A model generated the notes under the pieces. The model did no database searches, was not told where the DNA came from, and saw only the letters and a program-made list of their open reading frames with translations. A DNA stretch of 64,000 nucleotides, taken from an uncultured Eubacteriales bacterium. Lineage in GTDB: Bacteria > Bacillota > Clostridia > Peptostreptococcales > Anaerovoracaceae. The translations under genes and the position numbers were made by a program. The DNA lies in the NCBI GenBank assembly GCA_902775345.1, contig CACYLW010000007.1, forward strand, positions 160,096-224,095, written 5' to 3'. Each line of letters begins with the position of its first letter. The first letter of the stretch is position 1. Below, piece by piece: positions 51,973 to 55,718 of the stretch.

Positions 51973-53118
51973 TTATTCCTCTTCCTTAGCCTCTTCTGCA
52001 GGAGCTTCTTCTGCTGCAGGTTCTTCTGCAGGGAGAGTAGCCTTGATGCTCAGGCTGATTCTTCTCTTATCAGGATCGATCTCCATGATCTTGACATTGA
52101 CTGTCTCACCAACTTTGAGCTCGTCGAATACGTTCTCGACTCTCTTGTTAGCGATCTCGGAGATGTGTACGAGTCCGTCGAGACCTGCCTCGAGTTCTAC
52201 GAATGCGCCGTAATCCTTGATCTGAACTACCTTGCCCTCGAGAACATCGCCTACCTGATACTTCTCGCCTACGAGTGTCCATGGCTCAGGCTGAGTCTGC
52301 TTGAGGCCCAGGCTGATCTTGCCCTTCTCTTCGTTGAGTGAGAGGATCTTAACATTGATGATGTCACCGATCTTGAGAACTTCTTCAGGATGTTTGAGTT
52401 TGCCCCAGGAGATCTCAGAGATGTGGAGAAGTCCATCGACTCCGCCTATGTCTACGAACGCGCCGTAGTCAGTGAATCTCATTACCTTACCTTCAACAAT
52501 GTCGCCGACATTCAGATTCTCCCAGATCTCAGCTACAGCCTTGCGCTTCTCATCAACCAATATGGCCTTTCTTGAGAATACTGCTCTGTTACGCTTGGTA
52601 TCTACTCTGATAACTCTGACATCGAAAGTCTGACCGAGGAACTCTTCTGCGTTTTCGACGTACCTGTCGGAAAGCTGCGACATAGGAATGAAGCCTGTGA
52701 TCTCCTTGTAAGCTGCGATGACACCGCCGTTCACTGCTCTTGTGAGTGTGACAGTGATGTTCTCTCTGTTTTCCATCGCTGCTTCAAGCTCTGCGTAGTT
52801 CTCTACAGCCACAAGTCTCTTTGTTGAAAGCATGATGCCGCCTTCACCATCATCAGACTTGATGACCTTTGCCTTGATCTCGTCCCCTACCTTGTACAGG
52901 TCTGCGAGAGTCTGGCCCTCTTCCATTGCAACCTCGTCTGACCTTAAGATACCATCCTTCTTGCAGCCCATGTTGACGATGACGGAATCGCTCATTACTT
53001 GATCGACTTTGCCATCAATAATATCGCCAGGCTTTGGTAAACGTAAAGATTTCTCAATGTCATCCATGAAATCCATCATTGGATTCTGTTCCATACTTTT
53101 GTTGACATTTTCGCTCAT
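51973..53118 (-). CDS. rpsA: S1 RNA-binding protein (ribosomal protein S1-like)
   Basis: 381 residues with four S1 domains (approximately 30-100, 115-185, 200-270 and 285-355), the last two best conserved with [17 protein letters not shown] and [17 protein letters not shown]. An acidic Ala/Glu tail ends the protein. In many Clostridia this module is fused behind IspH. Here the frame continues upstream of ATG 53118 into [13 protein letters not shown], the IspH C-terminus, back to 53235, but the IspH frame proper stops earlier. I therefore start at ATG 53118, with AAGGAGG 11 bases upstream inside the old IspH codons. The role is probably mRNA binding in translation. Confidence 0.9.
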
Positions 53119-53176
53119 GTGGGAAATAACCTCCTTGATAATCCACTCGGGCGTCGAAGCGCCCGCTATGCAACCA

Positions 53177-53205
53177 ATTTTAGTATATTTTGTCAACCTA
53201 TTCAA
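53177..53205 (-). promoter_or_regulatory. Possible promoter for rpsA in the ispH scar
   Basis: On the minus strand TTGAAT (53200-53205), 17-bp spacer, TAAAAT (53177-53182). It lies in the AT-rich stretch where IspH codons are missing. It may be coincidental. Confidence 0.4.
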
Positions 53206-53212
53206 CAGTAAA

Positions 53213-53890
53213 TTAGTTGGAGCTGTGTTCGTCACCTATAACTATCATGGCGTCGACCTGAGCAGCAAGCTCCGCACAGCTTTCCTGACGTTCACGTGTT
53301 GCGTTGCATATTGTATTGTGGATATCATAATCTATCCCTGCACTATCAAAGACATTGAGCACGTCCTTCAGCAGCTCCTCCTTGATGGTTGTCTGGCATA
53401 CTATCATCGGTCTGGAGCCTTTTAATGATACGGCTTCGGCCTCAGCCTCAGCCTCATTTCCTATAACATGAGCGCTGTAGCCGCACCAGCCGTTTGTAGC
53501 TTTTACTTCCTGATGCTCCCTGTCACCTATTACTACTACAGGGACACCTTCCTCATGAGCTTTCAGAACAATGTCATGGATCTTTTTAACAAAGACGCAT
53601 GTCGTATCTATGAGGTGTATCCCCTTTGCCGCGGCCTTTTCATAAAATTCCCGGGGTTCTCCGTGAGATCTTACGATGACCGTATCCCCTTCTTCTGCCT
53701 CATCAAGTGACCCGATCATGGTGACACCCATTGATTCAAGTCTCTTTACTACATCCTTGTTGTGGATGAGGTAACCGCATGTAAAAAGCCGGCCCTTGCG
53801 TTCCTTTTTTTCAGCCTCGCTGAAAGCCATGTCTATTGCTCTGTTTACTCCGAAGCAGAATCCTGAATGTCTGGCTCTGATTATTTCCAC
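53213..53890 (-). pseudogene. ispH: IspH (HMBPP reductase), C-terminally truncated by frameshift
   Basis: IspH makes IPP and DMAPP from HMBPP in the MEP pathway using a [4Fe-4S] cluster. The GTG start (53890) follows GGGAG. The three cluster cysteines C12, C98 and C195 are present, as are the conserved His (43, 76), GDREHQE with Glu127, and QTT (166-168). The frame ends at SSN (223-225), where substrate binding by Ser/Asn should continue. About 22 residues that normally follow are missing and the last motif [10 protein letters not shown] is found in another frame (52 bp downstream), in phase with the S1 protein. A single deletion of about 65 nt would explain this. The 225-residue product lacks a conserved substrate-binding serine. 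Confidence 0.8.
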
Positions 53891-53910: not shown

Positions 53911-53941
53911 ACATGGCCGGCGGGATATCCGCCGGCCGTGT
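53911..53941. other. GC-rich 13-bp hairpin upstream of ispH
   Basis: ACATGGCCGGCGG GATAT CCGCCGGCCGTGT: 13-bp stem (one G-U pair), 5-nt loop. No U-tract follows on the minus strand, so it is not a standard terminator; it may stabilise or attenuate the transcript between the GGGtGRT gene and ispH. Confidence 0.7.
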
Positions 53942-53987: not shown

Positions 53988-55007
53988 CTAGAACTTTCCT
54001 GCAGTTGCTGCTTCCTCAACGGAAACTGCCACGGATACAGTCATTCCAACCATAGGGTTGTTTCCTGCTCCGATGAGGCCCATCATCTCTACGTGTGCAG
54101 GTACTGAGGAGGAGCCTGCAAACTGAGCGTCAGAATGCATACGTCCCATTGTATCTGTCATGCCGTATGATGCAGGACCTGCAGCCATGTTGTCAGGATG
54201 CAGTGTACGTCCTGTACCGCCGCCGGAAGCTACTGAGAAGTACTTCTTGCCTGCTTCGAGTCTTTCCTTCTTGTAGGTTCCTGCTACAGGATGCTGGAAT
54301 CTTGTAGGGTTTGTCGAGTTTCCTGTAATGGAAACGTCAACGTTTTCTTTCCACAGAATAGCTACGCCTTCCTGTACGTCATTAGCGCCGTAGCAGTTGA
54401 CCTTTGCTCTTGGGCTTTCAGGGTCCTTGGAATAGCACTTTCTGAATACTTCCTTGAGCTCGCCTGTGAAGTAGTCATACTCTGTCTCAACGTATGTGAA
54501 TCCGTTGATTCTGGAGATGATCTGAGCAGCGTCCTTTCCGAGACCGTTCAGGATGACTCTGAGTGGTTTCTGACGGACTTTGTTAGCCTTGGAAGCGATA
54601 CCGATAGCTCCCTCAGCAGCAGCGAATGACTCGTGACCTGCGAGGAACGCGAAGCACTCTGTGTCCTCTTCAAGGAGCATCTTGCCGAGGTTGCCGTGTC
54701 CGAGACCAACCTTACGGCGGTCAGCTACGGAACCAGGGATGCAGAATGCCTGGAGTCCTTCTCCGATTGCTGCGGCAGCGTCAGCAGCCTTGCGGCAGCC
54801 CTTCTTGATTGCGATTGCAGCGCCTACTGTGTATGCCCACTTTGCGTTTTCGAAGCAGATAGGCTGGATGTTCTCTATCATGTGATATACATCAAGACCT
54901 GCGTCCTTTGTGATCTGTTCTGCCTCTTCGATTGATCCGATACCGTACTCAGCCAGCTTGGAAAGGATCTGTTTTTCTCTTCTTTCGTAAGATTCAAATG
55001 TAATCAT
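53988..55007 (-). CDS. GGGtGRT family protein
   Basis: A 339-residue soluble protein of the uncharacterised GGGtGRT family, named for the SGGGTGRTLHPDN motif (about 262-274). The C-terminal half contains NPTRFQHPVAGTYKKE and VPAHVEMMGLIGAGNNPMVG, all highly family-typical. No known catalytic fold is obvious. These genes regularly sit beside a NifU-like scaffold gene, as here (18 bp upstream), which suggests a joint metal or iron-sulfur linked role; that is inference. Start ATG follows AGGAGG. Confidence 0.88.
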   Translation of the reverse strand: MITFESYERREKQILSKLAEYGIGSIEEAEQITKDAGLDVYHMIENIQPICFENAKWAYTVGAAIAIKKGCRKAADAAAAIGEGLQAFCIPGSVADRRKVGLGHGNLGKMLLEEDTECFAFLAGHESFAAAEGAIGIASKANKVRQKPLRVILNGLGKDAAQIISRINGFTYVETEYDYFTGELKEVFRKCYSKDPESPRAKVNCYGANDVQEGVAILWKENVDVSITGNSTNPTRFQHPVAGTYKKERLEAGKKYFSVASGGGTGRTLHPDNMAAGPASYGMTDTMGRMHSDAQFAGSSSVPAHVEMMGLIGAGNNPMVGMTVSVAVSVEEAATAGKF

Positions 55008-55025
55008 GTCTCTTTCCTCCCTGTA

Positions 55026-55718
55026 TTATTCTTTGCGCGGATCGATCAGTTTAGCAGCATCAGCTACGCGTCCGTACTGTCCGGATGCCTTTTCTAATGC
55101 CTTTGCCGGGTCATCGCCAGCCTTGATGAAGTCCATCATCTTTCCGAAGTTGAGATACTTGTATCCAATGATCTCATCATCCTCATCAAGAGCAAGCTGT
55201 GTGATATAACCTTCTGTAAGGTCGAGGTATCTTGGGCCCTTTTCAAGGGTTCCGTATGTTGTGCCGACCATGGATCTTGTTCCCTTGCCGAGGTCCTCAA
55301 GGCCTGCTCCGATCTGGAGTCCGCCTTCTGAGAAAGCGCTCTGTGAACGTCCGTAAACGATCTGCAGGAAGATCTCTCTCATTGCTGTGTTGATAGCATC
55401 GCATACAAGGTCGGTGTTAAGAGCTTCGAGTACTGTAAGACCCGGAAGGATCTCAGCAGCCATAGCTGCGGAATGTGTCATTCCGGAGCAGCCAAGAGTC
55501 TCAACCAGAGCTTCCTGAATGATACCGTCCTTAACGTTGAGTGAAAGCTTGCAGGCTCCCTGCTGAGGTGCACACCAGCCAACACCGTGAGTGTATCCTG
55601 AAATGTCGGATATCTGCTGTGGCTTTACCCATTTTCCTTCTTCAGGAATCGGTGCAGCGCCATGGTGCACTCCCTGATGTACAGGGCACATGCCTTTCAC
55701 TTCTGCTGAATAAATCAT
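55026..55718 (-). CDS. NifU-like iron-sulfur scaffold-type protein
   Basis: 230 residues. Domain resembles the NifU N-terminal (IscU) fold in GWCAPQQGACKLSLNVKDG (about 48-66) and ETLGCSGMTHSAAMAAE (about 74-90), which supply candidate cluster ligands Cys50, Cys56 and Cys78. MCPVHQGVHHG near the N-terminus adds another Cys and a His cluster. It is longer than IscU (about 130 residues), with a C-terminal extension of unknown function. It always accompanies GGGtGRT proteins in my knowledge of Clostridia and is first in the operon here. Confidence 0.85.
   Translation of the reverse strand: MIYSAEVKGMCPVHQGVHHGAAPIPEEGKWVKPQQISDISGYTHGVGWCAPQQGACKLSLNVKDGIIQEALVETLGCSGMTHSAAMAAEILPGLTVLEALNTDLVCDAINTAMREIFLQIVYGRSQSAFSEGGLQIGAGLEDLGKGTRSMVGTTYGTLEKGPRYLDLTEGYITQLALDEDDEIIGYKYLNFGKMMDFIKAGDDPAKALEKASGQYGRVADAAKLIDPRKE

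Follow-up and report, generated by a model that had tools for sequence, protein, structure and literature searches.

Fusions of IspH with ribosomal protein S1 are already known, and IspH activity survived truncation of the S1 part, according to the passages of the published study considered here (PMC4746011). The same passages count 447 IspH-S1 "Rosetta stone" proteins and regard the fusion as a single protein. The main text of that paper does not contain the words "promoter", "operon" or "start codon", and the parts of PMC6203783 consulted contain nothing on the start of the IspH-S1 gene. A literature search judged by title and opening of the abstract, with most subscription papers outside its scope, gave, among the matches listed, no paper describing a start or promoter of S1 inside these genes. 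"Rosetta stone" IspH-S1 proteins are read as evidence of linked functions.

Genes nested in frame within a longer gene and translated from an internal start are represented by cheA and infB of E. coli and by C/Nu3 of lambda, and promoters of E. coli rpsA lie inside the upstream gene cmk. As in cheA, infB and C/Nu3, a shorter C-terminal product would start inside a longer frame at the locus described here. It differs from these cases and from rpsA/cmk in that two functionally different proteins are involved and in being known from conservation alone.

The closest relatives of the locus in gene content are the IspH-RPS1 fusions, which likewise consist of IspH followed by four S1 domains, in one frame in most siblings of the present genome (model NF000907 and the passages of PMC4746011 mentioned above). 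In contrast to these, the frame is cut in the present assembly, and S1 here keeps its own start signals. The two frames are reminiscent of the separate neighbouring ispH and S1 genes found at four loci of the same order (L211, L212, L215 and L221), where 388-411 nt separate the ispH stop from the first S1 motif; however, IspH is complete at those loci.

Organization of the split ispH-S1 locus

The preliminary description of the window (the whole stretch of 64,000 nt that was analysed) held that the IspH frame ends at SSN, residue 225, that the IspH C-terminus lies in a different frame continuous with S1, and that the loss of about 65 nt, a number not divisible by 3, had removed about 22 IspH residues from an IspH-S1 fusion gene. 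All of these points were confirmed (Table 1). The Pfam LYTB profile is split between the two open reading frames, and a second run gave the same division (1-211 and 235-266, with the latter piece slightly below the cut-off). Thus, the ispH frame covers positions 1-212 of 267 and does not run on to the profile end and the AGASTP motif. With the bifunctional IspH/S1 model NF000907 the separate reading frames score 249.6 and 448.1 bits, both below its cut-off of 624 bits. HSSN and GASTP lie 64 nt apart here and 129 nt (43 codons) apart in intact relatives, a difference of exactly 65 nt. The S1 protein downstream of the split contains four S1 domains; its frame is bounded upstream by a TAG at 53236-53238, is open from the GTG at 53235 and shares 23 nt (53235-53213) with the ispH frame. 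Because of this TAG, the 680-aa open frame given by the profile search for the second LYTB piece was not confirmed. There is no N anywhere in the window, and a genome-wide search found no second copy of the break-region stretch elsewhere in the genome.

Table 1. Features of the split ispH-S1 locus (positions in the window)
Feature	Position	Strand	Description
ispH, 5' part	53213..53890	(-)	225 aa, GTG start, ends ...GDEHSSN + TAA; LYTB positions 1-212
Junction, 65 nt missing relative to siblings	53214..53215	(-)	
Remaining IspH C-terminus in the S1 frame	53116..53214	(-)	LYTB 234-266
Block shared without mismatch with four sibling species (185-209 nt) and over shorter lengths with five others	53006..53214	(-)	left edge = junction
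-35-like TTGAAT of the internal promoter-like site	53200..53205	(-)	
-10-like TAAAAT	53177..53182	(-)	17-nt spacer
Hairpin in the AGASTPE codons	53148..53165	(-)	third positions covary in the family; single-sequence fold not significant
Shine-Dalgarno AAGGAGG	53130..53136	(-)	11 nt upstream of ATG
S1 protein from its own ATG	51973..53118	(-)	381 aa
Full S1 frame from the first start codon (GTG)	51973..53235	(-)	420 aa, with the IspH C-terminal remnant

Residues 2-225 align with solved IspH sequences and include GFCFGV, RSHG, CQTT, NTICNAT and SSN, which we take to be the cluster cysteines and N-terminal active-site motifs of IspH. Since these residues match the solved sequences nearly throughout, and an intact sibling aligns with them onward through the AGASTP stretch, the lost part belongs to the core of the enzyme and is not a tail.

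IspH in related genomes

An IspH match was found in 44 of 47 genomes of the genus, and in most of these a single frame of 656-795 aa encodes both IspH and S1. Shorter frames are seen only where a contig ends at or close to the locus, at the N gap of G044, in G037 and in the present genome. The order search found IspH in 118 of 119 genomes, with a match that reaches LYTB 265-267 in 117 of them; the present genome is the exception. Among 80 named loci, one intact frame is seen in all eight loci of named strains and in 64 of 72 MAG loci; of the eight MAG exceptions, five start at a contig edge (one with the deletion of G027), two have N runs and one is the duplication of G037. Groupings of the compared genomes and loci that go beyond record titles and kinship labels are assumed. 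The preliminary description had left room for a working truncated enzyme, which appears unlikely, as the lost part is kept in the other 117 IspH-bearing genomes of the order search.

The present genome is 90.5% complete, so that with about 10% possibly missing an absence is no proof. Within this limit, IspH should be needed, since IspG, IspF and the DXR-like enzyme DRL (PF21135; G000:C1:42948-43448, outside the window) are encoded whereas HMG-CoA reductase was not found in the genome. Another IspH copy or a mevalonate route, which the preliminary description had also considered, found no support: the genome-wide profile search gave a single LYTB locus, in two pieces, and neither a second IspH nor the reductase. 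DXR itself (PF02670) has no match in 16 of the 47 genus genomes, including the present one. The loss of the pathway that this absence might hint at was rejected in view of its occurrence in so many genus genomes and the presence of DRL here. The pattern suggests that the enzyme of the second MEP step has been exchanged within a single genus; the search for DRL covered the present genome only. In this genome no dxr is left between the genes read as cdsA and rseP, ahead of ispG.

The remaining ispH is under purifying selection like that of its siblings, and nothing suggests gene loss. Measured against one common set (the present genome and 18 of 20 chosen siblings, L007 and L034 being lost to the motif requirement), the gene has a mean dN/dS of 0.053 in the present genome and of 0.041-0.051 in the nine nearest siblings; the nine more distant ones yielded 0.047-0.104 or no estimate. 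In these comparisons dS is close to saturated, and the dS means omit pairs for which no finite value was obtained. Gene decay is not supported by these values.

Origin of the break

The most plausible explanation, which we hold with fair confidence, is that the organism has an ordinary continuous IspH-S1 gene and that the break is an error of short-read metagenome assembly. Thus, the split is real in the sequence but probably not in the organism. Among the three ways out offered by the preliminary description, this one is best supported, by the position of the junction at the edge of a shared block, by the breaks in siblings and by the intact loci of named strains. To the right of the junction the sequence is identical to that of G029, G017, G037 (second copy) and G018 for 185, 197, 200 and 209 nt, respectively, whereas to the left identity extends over only 0-1 nt, and ispH ahead of the block is 80-82% identical to the genes of these four genomes. 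A near-identical block that follows a diverged ispH makes a fork point for a k-mer graph. The assembly graph would fork at the left edge of the block, near-identical across sister species, and joining its two sides without the intervening 65 nt would break the frame. Five further siblings (G013, G036, G012, G010 and G044) share the block from the same edge for 6-99 nt, the short match of G044 being due to its N run, so the fork argument rests on four species.

Other assemblies are disturbed at or near the same place. In G037, 70 nt are duplicated in tandem; the second copy begins exactly at the first right-side base of the junction and likewise breaks the frame. G027 has a third, different deletion just downstream of the junction position. 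Two contigs of G018 meet at the block with an exact overlap of 141 nt, and contigs of G027 overlap by 99 nt somewhat upstream in ispH; both lengths are near the largest k of common short-read assemblers. In G044 an N run follows directly after the S1 ATG. By hand count, a contig end lies within 300 nt of GASTP in six of the 44 genus genomes with IspH (G012, G013, G018, G027, G036 and G046) versus 1.5 expected (P about 0.003), or in seven of 44 if the N gap of G044 is included (P about 0.0006), an enrichment that was noticed post hoc and is calculated from rounded values of genome size and contig number. According to the consulted part of PMC6785717, one rumen MAG study whose genomes bear RUG names assembled single samples with IDBA-UD and co-assemblies with MEGAHIT at k values of up to 87. 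Against an assembly error it can be held that the contig is 224 kb long, that the window is without N, that the junction is far from the contig end and that a blunt join losing 65 nt is not typical of every assembler. If the error is accepted, conserved blocks common to sister species can produce false gene breaks in metagenome assemblies.

Two sibling assemblies show further irregularities. In G027 (C154; L038 from 255 onward, minus strand) GASTPE is joined directly to a site within the S1 coding region, so that the S1 start signals are lost, and the join carries a short shared word. G013 carries two different IspH-S1 loci, L041 and L042 (on C71 and C75), the second of which matches G009 around GASTP; this suggests mixed species in the bin.

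Rather unlikely, in our estimate, is a real and recent deletion after which S1 survives on its own start signals, while the 225-residue IspH is weak or dead and the cell either has another source of isoprenoids or is a doomed variant. Such a deletion would fit the clean sequence without N, the intact start signals of S1 and the occurrence of separate ispH and S1 genes in the same order. However, IspH is complete in every other matching genome of the order search, the rest of ispH is free of decay, IspG, IspF and DRL are retained without a detected HMG-CoA reductase, and the breakpoint falls exactly at a block edge common to G037. A real cut would amount to a natural experiment in which S1 is shown to need no link to IspH. 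A working split IspH, in which the 225-residue piece pairs with a C-terminal piece made ahead of S1 from an upstream start (GTG 53235, TTG 53205 or TTG 53196), is very improbable: the S1 frame is indeed open from 53235, but about 22 residues are missing from both pieces, the corresponding stretch aligns with solved IspH in the intact sibling, and the arrangement occurs in no other genome of the genus and order searches, G037 being split differently. Least credible of all is a programmed frameshift joining the two frames, which do overlap by 23 nt, as the joined product would still be about 22 IspH residues short and one-frame relatives need no shift (slippery sites were searched for by eye only).

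With an assembly error as the preferred explanation, the break itself is probably not biology, and the nested control region of S1 is the part of the locus worth following.

Putative S1 start signals within the end of ispH

The preliminary description missed the conserved promoter-like site, ribosome-binding site and ATG that S1 possesses at the break. Comparison of sister species, in which this stretch is kept near letter for letter, suggests that the end of ispH serves as a regulatory block for S1. Codon conservation was analysed in 73 distinct intact IspH-S1 genes, taken from 102 that were long enough and free of N among 116 in frame at 133 loci. These genes are related, so their counts are not independent, and the present genome is not among them. 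The highest excess of synonymous codon identity in 12-codon windows starts at the codons AAG GAG GTT ATT, with AAG at 71 of 71 lysines and both GAG and GTT in 73 of 73 genes. The leucine 14 codons ahead of GASTP is encoded by TTG in 73 of 73, a codon that accounts for about 10% of leucine codons in those genes (usage 0.10), and the asparagine seven codons ahead of GASTP, where present, is always AAT (60 of 60). The fixed TTG, AAT and AAG-GAG codons are parts of TTGaaa-17 nt-TAaAAT and AAGGAGGT.

Scored at its fixed place, the promoter-like site has a mean of 9.40 out of 12 and reaches 9 in 63 of the 73 genes, whereas synonymous recoding with the codon usage of each gene gave a mean of 6.45, and the top single-locus mean was 8.16. 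AAGGAGGT is present in 71 of 73 genes, and an in-frame ATG follows GGAGG by 11 nt in all 73. The Shine-Dalgarno sequence and the start codon are conserved beyond coding need, and, in this family only, the same is true of the -35-like and -10-like elements. RNA polymerase would start at the internal site and ribosomes at the internal ATG, which would yield free S1 besides the fusion protein. A search for known regulatory RNA gave three matches, none near the gathering score and none on the block.

The codons for AGASTPE form the hairpin CGGGCG-CTTCGA-CGCCCG, in which the amino acids dictate four of the six pairs and the remaining two fall on third codon positions that are free to vary. These two free pairs form in 72 and 69 of the 73 genes, compared with 57 and 60 in shuffles (z 7.4 and 4.5), and are the strongest of 21 third-position combinations. 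Because the next-best combinations reach z 3.5, 3.0 and 2.5, some of the signal must come from relatedness; among the 43 distinct sequences the free pairs retain z values of 5.9 and 3.7. Outside the family, 53 loci with the motif show an excess at the first pair only (z 3.8 versus 0.3). In the present genome taken alone, neither the fold (z -0.62 and -1.26) nor the promoter-like match (5 sites per 1.1 kb versus 2.0 expected, sd 1.5) is significant, so that conservation and covariation carry both claims. Placed at the 5' end of the putative S1 transcript, the stem could slow its decay or permit control by S1 itself.

Putative start signals beyond the family

In the class, 222 of 293 genomes score above the cut-off of the bifunctional IspH/S1 model. 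We analysed 70 loci from this set, the 30 best and 40 picked from the listed matches; five of the 70 belong to the same family as the present genome. GGAGG occurs within 57 nt after GASTP in 69 of the 70 loci (AGGAGG in 63), followed after 5-11 nt by an in-frame start codon: ATG at 11 nt in 59 loci, ATG at 8 nt in seven, and TTG or GTG at 5 nt in three. Control [KE]E dipeptides at other places in these frames carried AGGAG in 73 of 1050 cases. Inspection by eye of class loci outside the family did not reveal the promoter-like site. The motif left 12 of 30 order-level loci unparsed; of the others, seven are fused and 11 have a separate complete IspH; within the stretch examined, S1 motifs lie downstream in four of these 11 and none were seen in seven.

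From these patterns we favour, by a narrow measure, the view that clostridial IspH-S1 "fusions" are nested genes, in which free S1, perhaps the main ribosomal S1, would be made from a start inside the end of ispH (and in the present family from an internal promoter, with a hairpin at the 5' end, as well), with the long fusion as a minor product. If free S1 is also made, the fusion may be a product of read-through in which S1 retained independent control, and the codons of a metabolic enzyme would carry the regulatory information for a ribosomal protein.

Upstream of the locus, the window contains two genes ahead of ispH (53988-55718, minus strand), one encoding a 339-aa protein without an NCBIfam match that holds GGGTGRT and the other a 230-aa protein with weak NifU/IscU matches only. 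Between ispH and the preceding gene (53915-53937) there is a nine-pair, all-GC hairpin with a poor T tail.
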